Source: Asterias amurensis
Taxonomy: Eukaryota > Echinodermata > Asteroidea > Forcipulatida > Asteriidae
DNA: 64,000 nt
Assembly: GCF_032118995.1 (NCBI RefSeq)
Contig: NC_092657.1
Location: 16,102,181-16,166,180, forward strand
Reading direction: 5' to 3'
Positions 9,372 to 58,000 of this stretch are shown in pieces. Position numbers and translations under genes: made by a program. Position 1 is the stretch's first letter, and every line of letters begins with the position of its first letter. The notes beneath the pieces were generated by a model that was given only the letters and a program-made list of their open reading frames with translations, had not been told where the DNA came from and searched no databases.

Positions 9372-9512
9372 TAATCCTTGAATTGACTGAGAGTAAGATG
9401 ATAGTTCATCATTTTGGACCACCTCCTGATGGTTATACTCCTGGTCAACACTGGGTCACACAAGTCATGAAACAGGTACCAAAACGGAATCGATGCCAGT
9501 CCACTGAAAAAG
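9372..9512 (+). other. Tentative upstream exon of the fibrinogen-discoidin gene
   Basis: A 141-nt stretch lies between an acceptor (TTTTATTTAG) and a good donor (AAAAAG|GTAAGC). It is phase 1 at both ends and joins in frame to exon 2, giving STEK|DTLTDCQALL. It encodes a linker-like segment with HHFGPPPDGYTPGQHW and a basic KRNRC. No domain is recognised. An ATG lies at 9398, but the following residues do not look like a signal peptide, so translation probably starts further upstream. The splice-phase match is the main support. Confidence 0.45.
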
Positions 9513-12500
9513 GTAAGCAGAAACTACTTTGAAGTTCATTGTTTAAATGGTGAACATCTTAACTCCAAAGTACAACCCTTTGGTTTTTATTTGAATACGG
9601 TAAGAATATCGAGAAGTCTTATATAGCGCACGTCCCCACCAATAATGTACTCAATGCGCTGAGTACAAACTTTAAGAAAGATAGGTTATTGAAGTGATGA
9701 ATTATGGGACCCAATTGTACACATAATAAGAGTTTACAAGGTGCTACGGCGCACTTAGCAATCATAGCCTTGGAACACTTGGGCGAACCCCTTCTCTTTT
9801 CGGCAAGTGCACTGGGTTACTTTACATGCGTTACACAACACATGGGACCAACGGATTCACGTCTCACAGAAGGACCAAGCAATACTGTTAAGTCTAGCTT
9901 AACCCGAACCCACACTCTGTTGATTAGAAACACCAGAGTTTGAAATTCGGTGCTCTTAACGGCTCGCCACGACACTTCCACGTATAGAGCCAGGTATACT
10001 TAACAAAGAACATATCATTCCACAGGCAACCAACATGGATGGGTTTCAAACCCTTGACTTTGCCATATTAAAGGTTAATGTTTTCAGAACTAGACCGCCG
10101 ATCTACGTCAATGACTAGAGTCAGTTTGCATCATTCTAGCACAGGGTACCGAAATACATGTTTCTCCTCACAACAAATGATAGCCGATCTACGTCAATGA
10201 CTAGAGTCAGTTTGCATCATTCTAGCACAGGGTACCGAAATACATGTTTCTCCTCACAACAAATGATAGCCGATCTACGTCAATGACTAGAGTCAGTTCG
10301 GATCATTCTAGCACAGGGTACCGAAATACATGTTACTCCTCACAACAAATGATAGCCGATCTACGTCAATGACTAGAGTCAGTTTGCATCATTCTAGCAC
10401 AGGGTACCGAAATACATGTTTCTCCTCACAACAAATGATAGCCGATCTACGTCAATGACTAGAGTCAGTTCGCATCATTCTAGCACAGGGTACCGAAATA
10501 CATGTTTCTCCTCACAACAAATGATAGCCGATCTACGTCAATGACTAGAGTCAGTTCGGATCATTCTAGCACAGGGTACCGAAATACATGTTACTCCTCA
10601 TAACAAATGATTTCAATTTCAATATCATTTTCTCTTGTCTAATCCAACAGATACATTAACCGATTGTCAGGCTTTGCTGGATGCTGGATACAAAGACAAT
10701 GGTATTTACACTATCCATCCCTACCAGAATGATGAAGGAATTAAAGTGTTTTGTGATATGACGAAGCATACAGGCTGGATTGTAAGTACATGGATTAAAA
10801 GGGTAGCTTTATATAGCTTTTGTACTGTCTTTTTGACAGATATGGGGGTTTAAAATTTTTCTTTTGTCCACAAGTTTAATGCATTATTTCATTTTGTCCA
10901 TTTCACCTTTTAAAGACGAACCTGGTCCACTGTTTAACTCAAAGTTTGCAACGTCTTCCATTTTTTGTTCATGAAAACTACTATAGAATAACAGCCAATG
11001 CAATAACTGTTTTTTAAATGTATTAAAATTGAGTCATTACTCCACGAAAATGATTGAATAGCGTGATTTGCATAGATGAATATTTATAACAACTGTGACG
11101 TAATTCTACATGTACGAATTTAGTTTTAGAGGGGGTATTATTCATACCGGTTACCCATGTTTAAAACAAAATTGAGATAAATCTGACGGCCAAGTCAAAA
11201 TATTATCATATAAATCATTGCTTTGAAGGTGTTCCAGCGGCGCGTTAATGGGTCAGTCAATTTCAACCGCAGTTGGGCAGAATACAAGAAAGGCTTTGGG
11301 TCAATGGATGGTGAGTTCTGGCTTGGCAATGAGATTCTACATAAACTGACTGATGCTGAAGGGAACTGGACAGTCCGTCTGGACCTAACCAATGAAGAAA
11401 ATAAAACGGGTCATTTCCTGAAGAAACAGTTCCGCGTCGGACCTTACAATTACACCATGTTTCTTGAGCACTCCGTGTTACCACCAACTGGTATGTCTAC
11501 TTTTAGTTTGTTCTCACCATTACCAGGGCTCCACTGATTATATTGATAATCTATCAGGTTGTTTTAAAGGCTCCATTTATTGTATTTTTTAGAAAGAATC
11601 ACAAACTATGTTTGACGGGCCTGTTCTCAACTACTATATATTGCTTTATGTTAACGTTTCAAAACCGCCATTCAATTTAACATTACATTTTACACAATTA
11701 AATATGTTAGTTGACTCCGGGCACGATCTAGACGAGCTATTTTTAATTCAACAGTTACTTAAAATAATTAAAGGCTGAATTGTTTTTTTTTTTTTTTTTC
11801 TTTCCAGTTGGTAGATATTGTCGACACAAACTAGGAATGGAAGACGGGAGTATTCCTGATGATAAGATCACAGCATCTAGTCATTGGAGTTCAGTTTTTC
11901 CGCCAAGTAATGCACGACTGAATCTGAACGGTTGTTGGGGACCAGCTAAAAATCAACTCGATCATTCATGGCTCCAAATATTTACTGGTTCAGAGCCAGT
12001 GCAGATTGAGGGCGTCATCACACAGGGCAGGCCAGACCGTTATTACTGGGTGACACAGTACCAGGTACAATACAGCATTGATGGCACTGCATGGCTGTAT
12101 GTCAATGGGGACTCTACTCCACAGGTAAGAGTACTCAGCAAAGACACACTCCATCTCGACACACCAATCAAGCTCTACAACCATTATTCATGACCAAAGG
12201 CTTAATTATAATTTTTATTTCTTTATTTTTTCCACCCTGTTTTTTTACAGACTCGTTGGCAACACTGATAAACACCCCAGTTACCAATATTCATTAAAAA
12301 CATAACCACTCCAATACTGCAGGACAGCCATTATTTATATCCAAAAAGTTAAATACAATTTGTATGTATTGTTGTCTCCACCTCTGGTTTGTATTTTGTT
12401 TTACAGACATTCATTGGCAACACTGATGGGAACACCCCAGTTACCAATATATTCCAGCAGCCTATTCAAGCACGGTACATCCGCATCAGACCAACAGCCT

Positions 12501-15015
12501 GGGTAACATACCCAGACCTACGTATTGAACTCCTTGGATGCAAAGGTATTGTTTCAATCAATCACCACCTTTTCAAACGTCAGGCTTATTGTCACTATAA
12601 GGATTGGGGTACTTTTTGTAACACAAAACACAAAGTCTACCGATTTACCTTTACATTTAACTTACACAGATTGATGATAATGTCAGTAAAAAGCTTATAT
12701 AAAAAATATTGCTTGCTGATGTGATGTAATTTTTGAGAAATGTGTAAAACAATGTCACGAAAATACGTTTTACATGCTAAAACAAATTTTATCTCCTGAG
12801 ACGAAAATTATGTTCGTGACTTGTTTTACAAATTTCTCAAAAACTACAGCACCAGCAACAATTTGTTTATTTAACTCACGAACCAGAGCCCAGTTTGAGC
12901 CTATCGTGTTATAGAGAAGCCTTTTAAAGACAATCCAAAATTTTACAGAACTGGAGAACAACACATTAAATTCGAATCTTCAATCAATCAAATGTTTGTA
13001 TTTACAGTACGCTGGGTATGTAGACAACGCCTTCTTAAGCAAGCCCATATCAATCCAGACGAATCACCACGGCTTCAGATTGACCTGCTGTTAGTAACTC
13101 TAGTTGAGGGAGTCATAGCTCAAGGGAAAAATGAACCGTCATTTCAAGTAGAATACAGCCTTGATAACGTTACTTGGGTTTATGTTAGCCACCAGGGAGC
13201 ACCTGAAGGAGAACCTCAGGTAAATGGTTCTGTCATTGCACAAACAAAATTTGTTTTGTACAGGGGCACACCGGCTGAATTGGGCTATTTTGGCTACGTT
13301 ATAGACTAAGATATGACTTCAAAGGTCTGCCAGGAATGGCTAAGAGCAGTCACTATAAAAATATGTTTTATGATCCTACACCACTAAATTGCGTATACGG
13401 TGAGCCGGTGTGCCTCTTTAAATTGACGAGTTTTGTTTCTCGTGGACTTGTTACTCAACTTAGCTTTAAACAAAGACAATTTGGTAATCCCAAAAACTCG
13501 TACGCACAAGGAACATTGCAACATTATGAACAATGTTTTACTTTGTGACTAAATAAAAGTAAAGGTATAAACCAAATTTGCCTTAATCATGTTGTTCTAT
13601 CTCCTGTGCTACAGACATTCCATGGTAATACTCTGCAATCCGCACCGCTAACCAACGTGTTTAAGCAGCCGATCCGAGCACGTTTCATCCGTGTCACTCA
13701 AACAGACGTCGGACATCCAGCCGTAAGCATTGAACTCATTGGATGCAGAAGTAAGTTCCTTGAAAATAATAACCCAACTGAATTGTAATTCCAACTGCTG
13801 GTGTGGTTTTACTTGTTGGTTTGGATTTAATCTTAATATAAAGAAATAAAAACGATCTGAAACGTGTGTAAAGCAAGCCTTGTATTAAAGTGTTTTGCAA
13901 CAGTATAGCCTGCTAATTTACACCTTTCAGTATAGCCTGCTAATTTACACCTTCCAGTATAGCCTGCTAATTTACACCTTTCAGTATAGCCTGCTAATTT
14001 ACACCTTTCAGTATAGCCTGCTAATTTACACCTTTCAGTATAGCCTGCTAATTTACACCTTTCAGTATAGCCTGCTAATTTACACTTTTCAGTATAGCCT
14101 GCTAATTTACACCTTTCAGTATAGCCTGCTAATTTACACCTTTCAGTATAGCCTGCTAATTTACACCTTTCAGTATAGCCTGCTAATTTACACCTTTCAG
14201 TATAGCCTGCTAATTTACACCTTTCAGTATAGCCTGCTAGTTTACACCTTTCAGTATAGGCTGCTAATTTACACATTTCAGTATAGCCTGCTAATTTACA
14301 CCTTTCAGTATAGCCTGCTAATTTACACCTTTCAGTATAGCCTGCTAATTTACACCTTTCAGTATAGCCTGCTAATTTACACCTTTCAGTATAGCCTGCT
14401 AATTTACACCTTTCAGTATAGCCTGCTAATTTACACATTTCAGTATAGCCTGCTAATTTACACATTTCAGTATAGCCTGCTAATTTACACCTTTCAGTAT
14501 AGCCTGCTAATTTACACCTTTCAGTATAGCCTGCTAATTTACACCTTTCAGTATAGCCTGCTAATTTACACCTTTGATACAACTTGTATTCTGGAACACG
14601 CGTGCAGTAATTTTTTTTAAAAACAAAAAAGCTTACCAGACATTAAAAATTGCTTACTTAATTTGTGAAAAAGTACCTGAATCCTTTAAAAGAGCATCAA
14701 CTAATATTTGTATTTTATTTTGTTTTTCCAGATGATATTCTTGAGACTGCCAACAATCAAGCCTTCAGCATTCACCATCATACAAATAATAACCAACACG
14801 ACACAAACTGCCCAGGTCTGAATAGTGAAGGAGGATGGTGGTTTAATAGATGCTCTGGTATTCCTGGTGTAGACAATAACCTTAATGCTGAATATATCCA
14901 ACCTGGTGATACTATGGGTCCATACAAACGAGTTATTAGAGCTACTGAATGGAATGGTTCTCGTATTGTAAAGACTGAAATCAAAATACGCCGCCAATCT
15001 CCACCTCGTGGCTAA
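9372..15015 (+). CDS. Secreted fibrinogen-domain protein with two inserted F5/8 type C (discoidin) modules
   Basis: The exons read as 9372-9512, 10651-10781, 11229-11490, 11808-12124, 12407-12545, 13008-13219, 13615-13750 and 14732-15015. All introns are GT-AG and all phases agree, giving 540 codons to the TAA at 15013. Exons 2-3 give the first half of a fibrinogen-related domain (FReD), exons 4-5 one F5/8C domain, exons 6-7 a second shorter one, and exon 8 the last part of the FReD. Both families are extracellular lectin or adhesion domains that bind sugars, lipids or matrix; a role in recognition or adhesion is inference. The start and signal peptide exon were not found, so the 5' end is incomplete. 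No poly(A) site is certain; AATAAA at 15805 is a candidate. It could be two interleaved genes, but shared strand and phase make one gene likelier. Confidence 0.8.
9600..9980 (-). mobile_element. tRNA-derived SINE relic in intron 1
   Basis: Read on the minus strand from 9978, it begins with a tRNA-like head: TGGCGAGCCGTTAAGAGC resembles a Leu/Ser-type A box, and TGGGTTCGGGTT, 45-50 bases on, resembles a B box. The rest (GGACCAACGGATTCACGTCT region and the TTATATAGCGCACGTCCCCA region on the plus strand) is the non-tRNA body of a repeat type I associate with echinoderms. The boxes are mutated, so it is not a tRNA gene. Confidence 0.55.
10097..10612 (+). repeat. 86-bp tandem array, 6 copies
   Basis: GCCGATCTACGTCAATGACT starts at 10097, 10183, 10269, 10355, 10441 and 10527, exactly 86 bp apart, and copies are almost identical. 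Copies 3 and 6 share the variants TTCGGATCATT and ATGTTACTCC, whereas the others read TTTGCATC or TTCGCATC and ATGTTTCTCC. This suggests a 258-bp higher-order unit that duplicated once. It lies in the intron just before the first fibrinogen exon. Confidence 0.97.
10651..11490 (+). other. Exons 2-3: N-terminal part of the fibrinogen-related domain
   Basis: Exon 10651-10781 encodes DCQALLDAGYKDNGIYTI and VFCDMTKHTGWI, the first cysteine pair region of a FReD. Exon 11229-11490 continues VFQRRVNGSVNFNRSW, AEYKKGFGSMDGEFWLGNE, a VRLDL strand and YTMFLEHS. The intron between them is phase 0, between WI and VFQRR, and the donor at 11491 is phase 1. About 130 residues match the first 60% of a FReD, ending where the family usually has the YSGxAGD loop. 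Confidence 0.93.
11808..12545 (+). other. Exons 4-5: full-length F5/8 type C (discoidin) domain
   Basis: Exons 11808-12124 and 12407-12545 give about 152 residues, the family's normal length: CRHKLGMEDGSIPDDKITAS, ARLNLNGCWGP, WLQIF, EGVITQGR, YQVQYSIDGTAWLYV, then NTPVTNIFQQPIQARYIRI and LRIELLGC. The first and last cysteines that close the domain are present. The module is phase 1 at entry and exit, with a phase-0 intron inside. GNTDGNT keeps the usual GNTD spike sequence. Confidence 0.95.
12240..12297 (+). pseudogene. Relic of a duplicated discoidin exon
   Basis: A pyrimidine tract and TTTTTACAG acceptor (12242-12250) are followed by TTGGCAACACTGAT and ACACCCCAGTTACCAATAT. This copies the acceptor and first 45 or so bases of the real exon at 12407, about 156 bp further on. 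It has lost the GGG in the GATGGGAACACC stretch, reads into stops, and has no donor. Similarity ends near 12297. Confidence 0.8.
13008..13750 (+). other. Exons 6-7: second, shortened F5/8 type C module
   Basis: Exons 13008-13219 and 13615-13750 give about 116 residues. The exon boundaries and phases (1-0-1) match exons 4-5, and EGVIAQGK, FQVEYSLDNVTWVYV, LTNVFKQPIRARFIRV and SIELIGC are clear. About 36 residues are absent after the first cysteine, the part equal to GMEDGSIPDDKITASS and onward in module 1. That part forms the first binding loop, so this module may not bind ligand as its neighbour does. It arose by duplication of exons 4-5 or of a common ancestor. Confidence 0.88.
13901..14575 (+). 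repeat. 27-bp minisatellite, 25 copies
   Basis: The unit CAGTATAGCCTGCTAATTTA plus CACCTTT repeats 25 times without length change from 13901 to 14575. Single-base variants occur in a few units, such as ACATTT or ACTTTT for ACCTTT. Because 27 is a multiple of three and the unit lacks stops in one frame on each strand, both strands show 240-codon open frames of a 9-residue repeat. It lies inside the last intron, so it is not coding. Confidence 0.98.
14732..15015 (+). other. Exon 8: C-terminal part of the fibrinogen-related domain
   Basis: After the acceptor TTGTTTTTCCAG the exon encodes NDILETANNQAFSIHHHTNN, then DTNCPGLNSEGGWWFNRC, the C-terminal hallmark with its cysteine pair, then LNAEYIQPGD and VIRATEWNGSRIVKTEIKIR before the TAA. 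The usual calcium loop DxDND is replaced by TNNNQ, so calcium binding at that site is probably lost. GGWWYNSC in the family is GGWWFNRC here. Confidence 0.93.
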
Positions 15016-40764: not shown

Positions 40765-43168
40765 ATGTCAAAATCCACTAAGAAACAGTTGGGTTCTTCA
40801 AAATTTACAACTTTATGACTATTTTTGTACAACTCACTATGATCGTTAATGTGTTATCGTGACCTTTGACCCAAATTTTGAAATAACGCATCATTAAAAA
40901 AATCAACGAAATGAAAATCACTTGATAGAGCACGTCTTCCTCTGTCAAAATCCACTTACAAACAACTGGGCTCTTCAAAATTTACAACTTCAAGACTATT
41001 TTTGTACAGTTGGTAGGTAACAAATTAGTCAATTTTTATACTTTACTTTATAAATAAATAAAAAAAACTTTCAAAAATAATTAAAATTGTTAATGGTTTG
41101 GTGTTTTTTCATTTTGAGGGCTGATGTGGTCTTACCAGAATCATACTTTTAAAATACCAGCAGTGATCCACCCATGATTTAATTTGGGTTGTTGTTGTTG
41201 TTTTTTTTTTTTTTTTTTTGGGGGGGGGGGATATTTCCCAAACAAAATTATTTCCAAGATGGTAAACCAAAAAAATCACCATGCTACAACTCCGACTTCA
41301 TCTGAAGGTTAGCATGCCTTTTCGTGTGCTATACGGTTAGCGTCGATATGAAAGGGAAATCGCACAGTAAGCACAGCAGCTCTATTAAAATTGGCCCTGA
41401 AGTCAGAGTTGCAGCATGGTGAACACATTTTTCTTGAGGATTTCTCAGAGAGTTATTATGCATTTTAAAATTTGCTGTTCAAGATTCATCACGGGGGCTT
41501 AAATTCTGGTTAAGCCACATCAGCCCTTAACTAGAAAAAATATCAAACCACGAAGACTTTAAGGAACTTTAAGGAAGTATACAAACTGACTTATTTGTAA
41601 CCTAACAACTGTACACAAATAGTCATAAAAGTGTACATTTTGGAGAGTTGATTCATAAGCGGTTAAAGCAAGACTGCATAAGTTATAAAGGTAAACAGCT
41701 TCTCCATCTCAGCTTTGATGGACCCTCTAACTGGGATCATTAATAATCAACTGTTTCTTAGTGGATTCTGATAGAGGAATACATGCTCTAGCAAGTGATT
41801 TTTATTTCGTTGATTTTTGGAATGATACATTATTACAAACTGACCTACATTTCAGCAAATTTATTTTTGACGAAAGTACTGATTTGACCATGCAATTCTT
41901 ATCATGTTGATACCAAATTTGCATATTATGTCTAGAGAATTGACCTGGTTATGACATATTTATACCAAAAGATGGTATTTTACCCTAAGATTGTCAGATT
42001 TTAGTGGTTTCTGCCCTGACCACATGGTAAGTCCGATCGGGCTAAAAACTGGTGTGCATTCATTGCTCATGAGGACCTTTAATCACAGCAAAGCTCCATG
42101 GAAAGCCCCATAGCGGCACACATCTTAATGGTTTTGTTTTTGTTCTTTTTTGTTTAAAAAAATAAAAAATATGAGGTAAGATGCAAGCCTCTCCTTATAC
42201 ATTATTCTTGGGACTGGTGTCCGTTCACTCTTAATTAAATACATTGCACAATGTTGACGTTATTCCCACTCGCGCTACGCCTGTCCTTCAAACATGTCAT
42301 GCCTTTTGTACACTACTCTATCAACATCAACAGGTTCTCACTCCCTTTTACTGGGTTATCCATTCAACCAGCGGAAGCAGCAAGCGATCTTGAACTGAAA
42401 TTTTTAATATCGTCAGAAGTCTATATGGTAGCGCTGATGAAATTTTCCCAGAGAATTGTTGATGTTTTGTTAAAAATGGACCCGGCAGTGTAAATAACTC
42501 ACTGTTCCAATCGTTTGAGTTGTTATGATAGCTCCAATTTTTCTCAGAGGTTGCCGCAGTTTGTGCATTTGGTTCGAAGGCGGGCTAATACATTTTTTCA
42601 CTATCAAGCCCCTTAGCACTATAGGTATTTTCTGGGAAATTCCCAGGAACTTTTGGCCCATCTTTTCACTCCCCGAGAGTTGCCCGGAAAATAGCTTTTT
42701 CTCGGGGACAAAATTAACCCTGCTCAGGGGTAGGCAGTTAACCCCGGGCTGAAACGTTTTTCATGAAACGACCGTGCATATTCCCGGGAAATAGTACTCC
42801 CGGGAGTTACCAATATACACATATTGAATAGCAATGAGGTAACTAGTGTACATCTATTCCTCCGAGGGACTTTGACTGACCAGAAGAGGGACCTATTTAC
42901 CGATGCCGAACTCGCGATTTTTTGCATAGTTCCCAAAGAAGAGCAATTGCAATGTTTCAGGGATCGAAGGTTATGGTGCAATAATGATCCGAAGGCAATG
43001 ACGTCATCTCTGGTCACGTAAAGTCATCTTAAAGGTGTTTTATGTTAAAATATGTTTGAAAATCTATATCAAATCAGCCAAAAGAGACCGTATGTTTCTG
43101 TTTGCGGGATTGGGTAAGGATAAATTAGGTATTCATTTTGTTTCGTGTGCTTGACCTAACATGAGCTC

Positions 43169-44505
43169 TACCGACTCGGAAACAGGTTCATCATCTTACC
43201 CCTTAAGGTACGGAGTCCCACAGGGGTCGGTATTGGGGCCCCTCTTGTTTAACATTTACATGCTACCCATTGGTCAAGTCATTCGCAATCATGGTTTGAC
43301 CAGTCACTTCTATGCAGATGATACTGTCCTGTATGTATCAGCTTCACCAACTTCAGATGGTGTAACAATGTGCACTTCATCACTTATTGAGAGATGTTGC
43401 ACTGACATCAAACGTTGGATGAACTCAAACTACATGAAACTCAACACTAACAAGACCGAGCTGCTTGTTATAGGTACACCTGGACATTTAAATAAAGTTC
43501 CTGCCTTCAACTTAAACATTGGAGATGACTGTGTAGAAGTTTCAAAACAAATCAAGAACCTAGTGGTTGTATTTGACCGTAACATTAAAGTGCAAACTCA
43601 TATTCGTGAAGTAGCTCGTAATGCAATGTACCATCTACATAACAGTAAAATTAAAAAATATCTGACTTACTCGGTTACTGAACAGGTTATTACATCTCTA
43701 GTTATGTCCAGGGTTGATTATTGTAATGCTCTGCTTGCAGGTCTTCCTCAATCTACGATTGCACCTCTACAACGTGTCCAAAATTGTGCAGCTAGAATTC
43801 TTACAGGTACTAGAAAATTTGATCATGTTACCCCTGTTCTCATGAAATTGCACTGGCTTCCGGTAAAGTATCGTAATATTTATAAAATTTGTCTGCTAAG
43901 TTTTAAATGTATAAACAGTCTAGCTCCAGGCTATCTTTGTGAACTATTGCTTACGGTTAACTCAACTTCACGTAGGACCACACGTTCATCCTCAGATAAA
44001 ACTAGATTCCAACCTGTGAACACTAGATTATGTACTTACGGTGACAGAGCTTTCTCTGCAATAGCACCTCGTCTGTGGAACCAGCTAAATGTTTGTCTCA
44101 GGGAGGAAAACTCCCTCTGTAGCTTTAAATTTGGGCTTAAGACACATATTTTTAGGGAAGCATTTTTAACTTAAAGTATTTGTATATGTTCTTACTGCCC
44201 TGCTGCTTCATATCATTGTTTGCGGTTTTTATAATTGTTACTATCGTAACTATTGTTTGTGTTTTTTACTGGATCAAACAATTTCGGTGGCCTCTACTCA
44301 ATGTGTTTGATTGATTATATTCATCTTTTTACTTGTACATGTATCTTTATTGTTTTATTATAATACTTTATGGATTTTAATTTTGGACGTTTTAATTTTT
44401 TTGTTTTTGTGGTTAAAATTGTTGGTGTTGTAAAGCGCCTGGGAGCATTTTTAATGGATTTGGCGTTATATAAATGTTTATTATTATTATTATTATTACT
44501 TCTGG
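43169..44505 (+). mobile_element. 5'-truncated LINE (CR1/L2-like) in the left arm of P1
   Basis: The insert begins CGACTCGGAAACAGG and ends in a (TTA)n tail. The empty site (CATGACCTCTACTTCTGGTC, read on the minus strand near 28389) shows that CTCTAC lies left and TTCTGG right of the insert, with at most 2 bp of target duplication. The open frame 43161-44174 (337 codons) holds [13 protein letters not shown], the catalytic [10 protein letters not shown] and the whole RT C-terminus with LWNQL, but no endonuclease. Its ATG and first three or four codons come from the flanking array DNA. Closely related to the LINE at 1-786. Confidence 0.93.
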
Positions 44506-52064: not shown

Positions 52065-55000
52065 AAACAACATTACTTTCAATCCCTCTACTGGAACATT
52101 TGTACATGGCTAAAAAGTGCTGCCCCCTATAAGTACTAATGGCACCGTGGTCTCGGAATCCCAGGCTAAAACTGCTATTTTCACAATGCCTATACAAAGT
52201 ATTGTCATCTGGTTACGAATCACAATTATTGACTGATTTTTGCAGTTTGTAATTATATAAGATACATTTATATGAATCAGAAGTGCTTAAAAAGTAGGTT
52301 TTTCTTCTAAATTTATGCTTAAAAAGACTTGATTGTCACCCCCAAAACCCCAGAAAGCTCAGAGCTCCAGGAGGCTTCGCCCCTGGACCCCACCAGGGGC
52401 CGTACGGCCGGCCCCTTGACCCCACCCAATAAATTGGTTAGAGCCCCCCCCCCCCCTCTGTCAAAATCCACTAAGAAACAGTTGGGTTCTTCAAAATTTA
52501 CAACTTTGTGACTATTTTTGTACAACTCACTATGATCGTTAATGTGTTATCGTGACCTTTGACCCAATTTTTGAAATAATGCATCATTAAAAAAATCAAC
52601 GAAATGAAAATCACTTGATAGAGCACGTCTTCCTCTGTCAAAATCCACTTATAAACAACTGGGCTCTTCAAAATTTACAACTTCAAGACTATTTTTGTAC
52701 AGTTGGTAGGTTACAAATTAGTCAATTTTTATACTTTACTTTATAAACAAAAAAAAAAACTTTCAAAAATAATTAAAATTGTTAATGGTTTGGTGTTTTT
52801 TCATGTTGAGGGCTGATGTGGTCTTACCAGAATCATACATTTAAAATACCAGCAGTGATCCACCCATGATTTAATTTGGGTTGTTGTTTTTTTTTGTTTT
52901 TTTTTGTTTTTTTTTTTGGGGGGGGATATTTCCCAAACAAAATTATTTCCAAGATGGTAAACAAAAAAAAATCACCATGCTACAACTCCGACTTTATCTG
53001 GATGTTTGCATGTCTTTTCGTGTGCTATACGGTTAGCGTCGATATGAAAGGGAAATCGCACAGTAAGCACAGCAGCTCTATTAAAATTGGCCCTGAAGTC
53101 AGAGTTGCAGCATGGTGAACACATTTTTCTTGAAGATTTCTCAGAGAGTTATTATGCATTTTAAAATGTGTTGTTCAAGATTCATCACAGGGGCTTAAGT
53201 TCTGGTTAAGCCACATCAGCCCTTAACTAGAAAAAAATATCAAACCATGAAGACTTTAAGGAACTTTAGAAACAGAAGAGTGAGTTTTGTTGGTGGATGT
53301 ATTATGTAAAGTATACAAACTGACTAATTTGTAACCTAACAACTGTACACAAATAGTCATAAAAGTGTACATTTTGGAGAGTTGATTCATAAGCGGTTAA
53401 AGCAAGACTGCATAAGTTATAAAGGTAAACAGCTTCATTAATAATCAACTGTTTCTTAGTGGATTCTGATAGAGGAAGACATGCTCTAGCAAGTGATTTT
53501 TATTTCGTTGATTTTTGGAATGATACATTATTACAAACTGACCTACATTTCAGGAAATTAATTTTTGACGAAAGAACTGATTTGACCATGCAATTCTTAT
53601 CATGTTGATACCAAATTTGCATATTATGTCTAGAGAATTGACCTGGTTATGACATATTTATACCAAAAGATGGTATTTTACCCTAAGATTGTCAGATTTT
53701 AGTGGTTTCTGCCCTGACCACATGGTAAGTCCGATCGGGCTAAAAACTGGTGTGCATTCATTGCTCATGAGGACCTTTAATCACAGCAAAGCTCCATGGA
53801 AAGCCCCATAGCGGCACACATCTTAATGGTTTTGTTTTTGTTCTTTTTTGTTTAAAAAAATAAAAAATATAAGGTAAGATGCAAGCCTCTCCTTATACAT
53901 TATTCTTGGGACTGGTGTCCGTTCACTCTTAATTAAATACATTGCACAATGTTGACGTTATTCCCACTCGCGCTACGCCTGTCCTTCAAACAAGCCATGC
54001 CTTTTGTACACTACTCTATCAACATCAACAGGTTCTCACTCCCTTTTACTGGGTTATCCATTCAACCAGCGGAAGCAGCAAGCGATCTTGAACTGAAATT
54101 TTTAATATCGTCAGAAGTCTATATGGTAGCGCTGATGAAATTTTCCCAGAGAATTGTTGATGTTTTGTTAAAAATGGACCCGGCAGTGTAAATAACTCAC
54201 TGTTCCAATCGTTTGAGTTGTTATGATAGCTCCAATTTTTCTCAGAGGTTGCCGCAGTTTGTGCATTTGGTTCGAAGGCGGGCTAATACATTTTTTTCAC
54301 TATCAAGCCCCTTAGCACTATAGGTATTTTCTGGGAAATTCCCAGGAACTTTTGGCCCATCTTTTCACTCCCCGAGAGTTGCCCGGAAAATAGCGTTTTC
54401 GTGGGGAAAAAAAATAGCCCTGCTCAGGGGTAGGAAATTAACCCCGGGCTGAAACGTTTTTCATGAAACGACCGTGCATATTCCCGGGAAATAGTACTCC
54501 AGGGAGTTACCAATATACACATATTGAATGGCAATGAGGTAACTAGTGTACATCTATTCCTCCGAGGGACTTTGACTGACCAGAAGAGGGACCTATTTCC
54601 CGATGCCGAACTCGCGATTTTGTGCATAGTTCCCAAAGAAGAGCAATTGCAATGTTTCAGGGGTCGAAGGTTATGGTGCAATAATGATCCGAAGGCAATG
54701 ACGTCATCTCCGGTCACGTAAAGTCATCTTAAAGGTGTTTTATGTTAACATATGTTTGAAAATCTATATCAAATCAGCCAAAAGAGACCGTATGTTTCTG
54801 TTTGCGGGATTGGGTAAGGATAAATTAGGTATTCATTTTGTTTCGTGTGCTTGACCTAACATGAGCTCTACCGACTCGGAAACAGGTTCATCATCTTACC
54901 CCTTAAGGTACGGAGTCACACAGGGGTCGGTATTGGGGCCCCTCCTGTTTAACATTTACATGCTACCCATTGGTCAAGTCATTCGCAATCATGGTTTGAC

Positions 55001-58000
55001 CAGTCACTTCTATGCAGATGATACTGTCCTGTATGTATCAGCTTCACCAACTTCAGATGGTGTAACAATGTGCACTTCATCACTTATTGAGAGATGTTGC
55101 ACTGACATCAAACGTTGGATGAACTCAAACTACATGAAACTCAACACCAACAAGACCGAGCTGCTTGTTATAGGTACACCTGGACATTTAAATAAAGTTC
55201 CTGCCTTCAACTTAAACATTGGAGATGACTGTGTAGAAGTTTCAAAACAAATCAAGAACCTAGTAGTTGTATTTGACCGTAACATTAAAGTGCAAACTCA
55301 TATTCGTGAAGTAGCTCGTAATGCAATGTACCATCTACATAACAGTAAAATTAAAAAATATCTGACCTACTCAGTTACTGAACAGGTTCTTACATCTCTA
55401 GTTATGTCCAGGGTTGGTTATTGTAATGCTCTGCTTGCAGGTCTTCCTCAATCTACGATTGCACCTCTACAACGTGTCCAAAATTGTGCAGCTAGAATTC
55501 TTACAGGTACTAGAAAATTTGATCATGTTACCCCTGTTCTCATGAAATTGCACTGGCTTCCGGTAAAGTATCGTAATATTTATAAAATTTGTCTGCTAGT
55601 TTTTAAATGTATAAACAGTCTAGCTCCAGGCTATCTTTGTGAACTATTGCTTACGGTTAACTCAACTTCACGTAGGACCACACGTTCATCCTCAGATAAA
55701 ACTAGATTCCAACCTGTGAACACTAGATTATGTACTTACGGTGACAGAGCTTTCTCTGCAATAGCACCTCGTCTGTGGAACCAGCTAAATGTTTGTCTCA
55801 AGGAGGAAAACTCCCTCTGTAGCTTTAAATTTGGGCTTAAGACACATATTTTTAGGGAAGCATTTTTAACTTAAAGTATTTTTATATGTTCTTACTGCCC
55901 TGCTGCTTCATATCATTGTTTGCGGTTTTTATAATTGTTACTATCGTAATTATTGTTTGTGTTTTTTACTGGATCAAACAATTTCGGTGGCCTCTACTCA
56001 ATGTGTTTGATTGATTATATTCATCTTTGTACTTGTACATGTATCTTTATTGTTTTATTATAATACTTTATGGATTTTAATTTTGGACGTTTTAATTGTT
56101 TTGTTTTTGTGGTTAAAATTGTTGGTGTTGTAAAGCGCCTGGGAGCATTTTTAATGGATTTGGCGCTATATAAATGTTTATTATTATTATTATTATTACA
56201 TCTGATCGAACCAGGCCAAAAACGGAAGTGCCCTGTAACTCAAAAGTGGTAAAAGTTATGAAGTTGCTTTCCAAGGACGTAAGTGTCTAGCAAGCAAGGG
56301 TGGGCAGTTAAAAACAAAACAAAATATTGATGACGTCGCAAATTGCAACAACCCCTCTTTAGCGGCAGGTTGAAAACTCTTCAAAATGGACTTTTTGAAG
56401 ATGTCTGTGGTGAATTTTTTTGTAATCACTCTAAATTTTACACACACGCTAACTGTCAGCAGGCATCATAATTTTTGTGATGTGTGAAGTTTCACATCAA
56501 TGACGTCATCGGGGTCACGTGACGCGATCTTAAAAGTGCACTTTTTAAAGTCGTATAACTCTCGAAGTAATTACGCGATTACGTTGAAACTTCGTAGATT
56601 GTTAGATATTGGCAAGTTCTCGTGAATTATAAAATGACGTTATGAAGACGTCATCAAATTATTTTTAAAGATTTTTTTACCATTTGTGCGCCTGTAACAC
56701 ATCAATTGCTATCTGAACATGGTATAATCCCAATTAGTTTTTATTTATGCCACATTGGGCAAATTGCTTTGAATACACAACAAGTCTACTTATTTTTTTT
56801 TTTTCAAAGATCATGCCTTTAAATGCCCTTTTTACTGAGACTAAGGCTTTCAATGCAAAGAGTCTTTTGATGTGCTTTCGCTCCTCGAACATCCGATGAT
56901 ATACTAACTTTTGTATAAGGTATTTTGAACCTAGCCACGGAGGATGAGGCTTTGATAGTCTGGTCAACCGAATTCCAAAGACGAGAACCGTAGTCACGGA
57001 GAGTAATGGATGTGTATCATGTGCGTGCGAAAGGGACATGCATAATTGTAAAAGATACTTTCTGGTGGCTATTCAGTCTTTCTGGATTATCGTCTTCCTA
57101 GGGATGTACCAGACCGTAAACGAAAGGACGTACGGAAACCTACCAATTTCGTTCGCGTCACATGGGTACCTAATTATTCCATTTGGCGTACGCCCAGTCC
57201 TAAATAATGGGCAATGAACAGTGCACTGGATAACATAATTCACTCGCAGAACTATACATACCGCCCATCTGGGTAAATGGGGGGGGGGGGGGGGGGGCTG
57301 CGCTATGTGGTTTCCTTTCTAAATAATAGCCTAATCCCGGTGGTATAGACGCGTTTACGAATTAACGAAAAAACACCATTGTCACAAGAAGTTGTGGCTT
57401 TTAGATTTTTGATTTTGAGATCTAAAAATTTATTCTGAGGTCTCAAAATCAAATTCGTGGAAAATTACTTCTTTCTCGAAAACTATGTCACTTCAGAGGG
57501 AGCCGTTTCTCACAATGTTTTATACCATCAACCTCTCCCCATTAATCGTCACCAAGTAAGGTTTTATGCTAATAATTATTTTGAGTAATTACCAATAGTG
57601 TCCACTGCCTTTAAAGGTTGAAAGGAAAAGAAAAAAAGAAAACAAATCAGCTTGAAAAAGATCCAATAAATGTCAATGTTGTAACAACGAGTATTTGTAT
57701 CCACAAACAGGGCCCATGCATGGTAGGCTTCGCGTTGATTAGCTTTTTTGTTCACCTTTTTCCATTTTCTTATGAATTTTGTGTTATTTAGTCAATCATT
57801 TTACACAAGATTACACACTAGACTTTTCAAGGGTTTAACGTAAAATAATTGATTGGTTACCAATCTTGTTTAGGCACCTTTATGTAAAAATACACTCATA
57901 ACCTCCTCCCTCGCCTTTTACGTCTTACTTCACCTTTATATTAATAAAGACGTTCATAACCACAACACTAGATGTAGTAACAATTATGCGTGTCCCTTTC

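Follow-up and report, generated by a model that had tools for sequence, protein, structure and literature searches.

Discoidin modules inserted within a fibrinogen-related domain in a gene family of the sea star Asterias amurensis

In mollusc FREPs, N-terminal Ig domains are joined to a fibrinogen domain, and the DxDND acidic cluster of fibrinogen-related domains (FReDs) binds calcium. A review describes the FREPs as a diversified fibrinogen-domain family (PMC13428168). Sea urchins have Sp185/333 (SpTransformer), described as a diverse echinoderm immune family with clustered genes and segmental duplications (PMC5103432). For insect fibrinogen-like domains, one study distinguishes a large part (B), a small part (P) with the binding pocket, and a last strand that returns from P to B (PMC1242226). 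As for discoidin (F5/8C) domains, the hydrophobic loops of factor VIII C2 are given as residues 2197-2200 and 2250-2252, and hairpin loops of this kind bind membranes (PMC9643838).

Here, we describe a gene whose FReD is interrupted by F5/8C modules. It lies in a stretch of 64,000 nucleotides on contig C10, which we call the window; copies were sought in the whole host genome (491,506,623 bases in 23 contigs). Both domains are already known. A discoidin module inside a fibrinogen domain was not found in the titles and abstract openings that we searched, which covered few subscription journals, and F5/8C arrays nested in a FReD, with diversity limited to the tips, are not apparent in that literature.

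The interrupted domain

The gene has seven exons with GT-AG ends, from 10651 to 15014 on the forward strand, and the spliced frame is open for 492 amino acids, counted from exon A (Table 1). Its FReD is not contiguous: F5/8C modules sit between residues 130 and 131. An earlier reading, made from the sequence only, had described FReD pieces of 130 and 94 amino acids, had placed the split where the family has YSGxAGD, and had proposed that its exon 3 joined to its exon 8 (our B and G) gives an unbroken FReD. All three claims hold. When aligned with MFAP4, the cut lies immediately 5' of the D in ..GAGDSLS.., and exons A, B, and G together match Fibrinogen_C (PF00147) at 133.6 bits, where the cutoff is 22 bits, over residues 3-217 and nearly the full profile (3-219 of 221).

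The spliced protein matches Fibrinogen_C in two stretches and F5_F8_type_C (PF00754) in two, the latter at 130.6 bits. The sequence-only reading also had two F5/8C modules in the FReD loop. They are indeed on one strand and in phase, but the second is not a whole unit. Module 1 is a near-full match to PF00754 (stretch 150-271, profile 1-118 of 127). The second, module 4, scores 47 bits, which is above the cutoff, yet it covers only positions 30-116 of 127 and is not near-full. Truncation of module 4 at its start was considered and rejected: alignment with modules 1 and 2 and with module 4 from contig C17 reveals an inner gap instead, of 33-34 residues, which removes the first two tip loops. 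All 24 C10 loci that were read have this same short form. Because the C17 module 4 (the sole part of that C17 gene that was read) is full-length, the gap in the C10 family looks derived. In the C10 family, where these loops are missing, module 4 may be a spacer.

Table 1. Exons of the split FReD gene in the window and their conservation among copies
Feature	Position	Strand	Content	Conservation
Upstream exon	9372..9512	+	Probably exon 1 of the sequence-only reading; phase 1 at both ends	Conserved across copies
Exon A	10651..10781	+	FReD residues 1-43	Donor GT in 24/24 copies; in 15/24, acceptor AG at the same base
Exon B	11229..11490	+	FReD residues 44-130; phase-1 end within the loop	AG and GT in 30/30 copies
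Exon C	11808..12124	+	First two thirds of F5/8C module 1	AG and GT in 29/30 loci
Exon D	12407..12545	+	Final third of F5/8C module 1; phase-1 end	
Exon E	13008..13219	+	Module 4, the second module of the window gene; internally gapped	Splice sites in 22/22
Exon F	13615..13750	+	Final third of module 4; phase-1 end	AG and GT in 30/30
Exon G	14732..15015	+	FReD residues 131-224 and stop TAA	AG and TAA in 30/30 copies

The exception among the 30 loci for the splice sites of exon C is a copy without module 1. The upstream exon encodes ILELTESKMIVHHFGPPP...STEK and is either internal or begins with a start ATG at 9398. In seven aligned copies, its conservation begins directly after TTTAG and ends at the GTAAGC donor. 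Besides the window, 13 fetched loci match it, one of them with a broken match. By eye, we saw no signal peptide in this exon, and no earlier exons were found; two further upstream stretches gave exon 1 alone or nothing.

The window contains several other features. A decayed start of exon D (ACTCGTTGGCAACACTGATAAACACCCCAGTTACC), with an acceptor, lies in the C-D intron at 12248-12300, about 160 bases 5' of the intact exon D, and may have been left by a duplication or recombination event within the module. Between exons F and G, the intron holds 25 copies of a 27-base tandem repeat (13901-14575), with a frame open on each strand. Another tandem repeat, with six copies of 86 bases (10097-10611), ends about 40 bases before exon A; the gene copy at 16.04 Mb seems to have a single copy of this unit. 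Two nearly identical open reading frames of 339 amino acids (43155-44174 and 54855-55874), which look like reverse transcriptases of non-LTR retrotransposons, are exactly 11,700 bases apart. The two occurrences of a tandem repeat (45712 and 57412) are separated by this distance too, and together these pairs suggest an 11.7-kb direct duplication. On the reverse strand, a 528-amino-acid frame (1309-2895), which looks like part of another retrotransposon, is followed by a frame at 790-1308. A search of the window against Rfam gave no match.

Related genes and the origin of the insertion

At an identity of at least 85%, exon G matches 38 sites, 36 on C10 and 2 on C17. Among the matches listed, each of the 36 C10 G exons is preceded on its own strand by a B exon, and F5/8C exons lie in the stretch that separates the two. 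Most of these genes (30) have modules in the order 1-2-3-4; two have 1-2-2-3-4, one has 1-2-3-1-2-3-4, two have 1-4 (the window copy and a copy at 19.45 Mb, both without modules 2 and 3), and one, at 13.36 Mb, has module 4 only. These counts come from the matches listed, with weaker cross-module matches and all matches off C10 excluded. C10 also has one extra B-1 fragment with no G exon. The reading of these exons as one gene is upheld, with a refinement: the window gene is a short member of a family that usually has four modules. Some C10 copies are identical across the exons read (for instance, those at 15.90 and 15.99 Mb), so haplotypes that were not collapsed, or duplicates of very recent date, may be among the 36 genes. 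The interval at 18.0-18.6 Mb on C10 holds a run of seven split FReD genes spaced 84-101 kb apart, a pattern that tandem duplication of a unit of about 90 kb would give.

Copies were found on other contigs as well. C11 has one gene with a single module, whose exons are 51-73% identical to those of the window, and C6 has one fully read gene, also with a single module, at 39-54% identity; both keep the order and phases of the exons. C17 has matches for exon B, modules 1 to 4, and exon G, in that order, at 2.78-2.80 Mb. An assembly join or a chance arrangement is ruled out by the recurrence of the layout on C10, C11, and C6, where it was read, and on C17, as ordered matches. At six further sites on C6 (22.87-22.91 Mb), a G-like exon adjoins C- and D-like exons, and at three of the six there is an in-frame TAA inside the G match. 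A second C17 site, at 4.90 Mb, has D- and G-like exons only. Across the whole genome, at least 150 matches to Fibrinogen_C were scored among 700 candidates. Those listed span almost the entire profile without a change of frame, a few have internal stops, and many are on C10, C6, and C19.

Two of the other FReD genes, L072 and L073 on C6, have A/B and B/G introns at the same positions as the split genes, with the B/G intron in phase 1. Searching the fetched stretches of 7-8 kb around them by tblastn, with F5/8C exons as queries, found no F5/8C exons. The F5/8C cassettes of the split genes are symmetric (phase 1-1), which matches a recipient intron in phase 1, and in L072 and L073 this intron is empty. 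That two related FReDs have the phase-1 intron without F5/8C points to exon shuffling as the probable route by which the modules came into an intron that was already there.

We also built an unrooted tree of 14 FReDs, which is a small sample with two of the split genes on long branches. The split genes group together (98/94), as do the two empty-intron genes (99/96), and these six split and empty-intron FReDs lie apart from the eight single-frame FReDs (100/100). On the evidence of these sequences, the simplest and most likely reading is that a single phase 1-1 module was inserted into an existing phase-1 intron and the module was later duplicated. Judging by the tree and the phases, a single insertion would predate the split of the C6, C11, and C10 lineages, with gene duplication and gain or loss of modules thereafter. 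Empty-intron relatives, one-module genes, and four-module genes in one genome display, side by side, the stages before and after a domain was interrupted in its middle, probably by exon shuffling.

Selection on the modules and how the protein might work

For the FReD exons A, B, and G, a one-ratio codon model gives omega values of 0.25, 0.35, and 0.39; for the module exons D, E, and F, the values are 0.60, 0.64, and 0.61. Medians from pair counts, taken over pairs with dS of 0.05-1.5 only, are 0.21 for A, 0.36 for B, 0.38 for G, and 0.67 for exon C of module 1; for exon G, the bootstrap interval of pN/pS extends to 1.01. The figures for exons A, B, and C are from the best 30 of 37 C10 matches to exon B, and those for exon G are from the best 30 of 36.

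Exon C is strongly variable between copies in three tip loops. Counted by hand along the alignment with factor VIII, loops 2197-2200 and 2250-2252 correspond to residues 28-31 and 77-78 of module 1, with 2252 in a gap. In module 1 (29 loci with 25 different sequences, after L062, which has no module 1, was dropped), 11 of the 15 most variable columns are within the 18 loop columns of 106 (P = 1e-7). For module 2, with 20 loci chosen from 36, the corresponding count is 9 of 15 within 22 loop columns of 108 (P = 3e-4). Module 3 (20 loci chosen from 34) has 7 of 15 in 31 loop columns of 112, which is not significant (P = 0.08). The bounds of the loops were set on the factor VIII alignment anchors, but after the variability had been seen.

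Under the codon model, omega of the loops is 1.81 in module 1 (2dlnL = 5.49 against omega of 1), 3.36 in module 2 (2dlnL = 11.14), and 1.03 in module 3 (2dlnL = 0.01), although these likelihood tests are open to distortion by gene conversion between copies. Plain counts on 12 and 10 disjoint pairs found no significant excess of amino acid change in the loops (P = 0.52 and 0.26). Constraint is weak for module 2 outside the loops (omega = 0.94) and for module 3 as a whole (0.84). Overall, the variation of modules 1 and 2 is concentrated in the loops that are predicted to form the discoidin binding tip.

The DxDND acidic cluster in the P part of the FReD reads HHTNN, HHTDN, or similar in the C10 copies read. 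It is DRDND in the C6 split gene and DQDND in L072, L073, and three intronless FReDs of the alignment. With both halves conserved but this cluster replaced in those C10 copies, the FReD may act as a platform, whereas diversified tips are borne by the first two F5/8C heads. By comparison with the fibrinogen fold, exon G would correspond to the P part plus the last strand, which would put the insert at the border of B and P.

We think it probable that these genes are a working multicopy family in which a conserved FReD platform presents diversified F5/8C heads. Splicing of the pre-mRNA would place one or more phase 1-1 F5/8C cassettes between FReD exons A and B on one side and FReD exon G on the other. 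In the folded protein, the modules would start and end at the loop where the larger (B) part of the fibrinogen fold meets the smaller (P) part. The tips of modules 1 and 2 perhaps bind microbial or other nonself glycans or lipids. The sequence-only reading had suggested a two-headed recognition protein. The half of this idea that concerns the modules is favored by the variation of the module 1 and 2 tips between genes, but the loss of the acidic cluster in the C10 copies read counts against a FReD head. Given the HHTNN or HHTDN cluster and the variable tips of modules 1 and 2, F5/8C heads on a FReD platform fit better than a two-headed lectin does. More tentatively, and with slightly less than even confidence, we suggest a loop-display repertoire diversified in the germ line: the conserved FReD would have lost its own ligand site, the number of heads would vary as in-frame 1-1 cassettes are gained or lost at the genomic level (splicing perhaps contributing as well), and the first two tips would be under positive selection.

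Several alternatives need to be weighed against the platform reading. First, the cassettes might be optional, with B also spliced directly to G, so that one gene would make both a plain FReD and the form with heads. The two cassettes of the window and the four of the copy at 16.04 Mb are all phase 1-1, so skipping them would keep the frame, and exons A, B, and G joined directly match the Pfam profile along nearly its whole length. Still, retention of the frame is no evidence that skipping is in use, and at least one module is retained in all 36 of the paired C10 copies; we consider such alternative splicing possible but unlikely.

Second, the product might be a matrix or adhesive protein, with loop diversity that reflects binding to self or to a substrate. 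F5/8C and FReD domains both occur in matrix and adhesive proteins. Recognition repertoires are the more usual setting for a large duplicated family whose diversity is confined to the tips, which is not decisive; we consider the matrix reading possible but unlikely, and the split FReD family may have an immune role.

Third, the window copy in particular might be a decaying pseudogene that has lost modules 2 and 3. Modules are missing from it, the copy at 13.36 Mb is down to module 4 alone, and the C-D intron near 12250 holds the decayed copy of the start of exon D. However, the spliced window gene has no stop or break in frame, and its shortened module 4 is the usual form in the C10 family. Decay seems improbable, and the window copy is most likely intact, a short version of the gene from which modules 2 and 3 are absent.

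Finally, the exons might belong to two genes with no relation to each other, or to a FReD gene with an F5/8C gene in one of its introns, and merely appear joined. We consider this extremely improbable: the F5/8C exons are internal and phase 1-1, omega is well under 1 for both FReD halves, and the exon order and splice sites are kept across many C10 copies and on other chromosomes.

Comparison with known fibrinogen-related and discoidin proteins

Among proteins of known structure, the joined exons A, B, and G align with MFAP4 over residues 4-222 (E = 4e-31), and ficolins also match. None of the best 60 of 68 structure matches to the joined FReD is named as a discoidin protein. The split genes share the cysteine pair of the P part and the GGWW core with MFAP4, ficolins, FIBCD1, and tachylectin 5A. 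They differ from these fibrinogen-related proteins in that the domain is interrupted by F5/8C and, in the C10 copies read, in that the acidic cluster is replaced.

Module 1 resembles the C domains of factors V and VIII and the b domains of neuropilin (PF00754): it matches factor VIII and neuropilin chains, and the hydrophobic loops of factor VIII C2 coincide with variable stretches of the module. In contrast to known F5/8C domains, the modules here are inserted inside another domain, their tips differ between paralogues, and module 4 of the C10 family is gapped. In our judgment, a whole-domain insertion into a lectin-type fold that is kept across tens of genes is unusual, and it is the insert, not the host fold, that carries the diversity.

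Two known repertoires are the closest parallels. Like the mollusc FREPs, the split genes are a diversified fibrinogen-domain family, but their variability lies in a nested F5/8C module. Like Sp185/333, they form a diverse and clustered echinoderm family with duplications; Sp185/333, however, is an unrelated protein without a FReD or F5/8C domain. If the heads do bind microbes, then the split FReD genes would be a diversified echinoderm family with a fixed platform, exchangeable heads, and variable tips.
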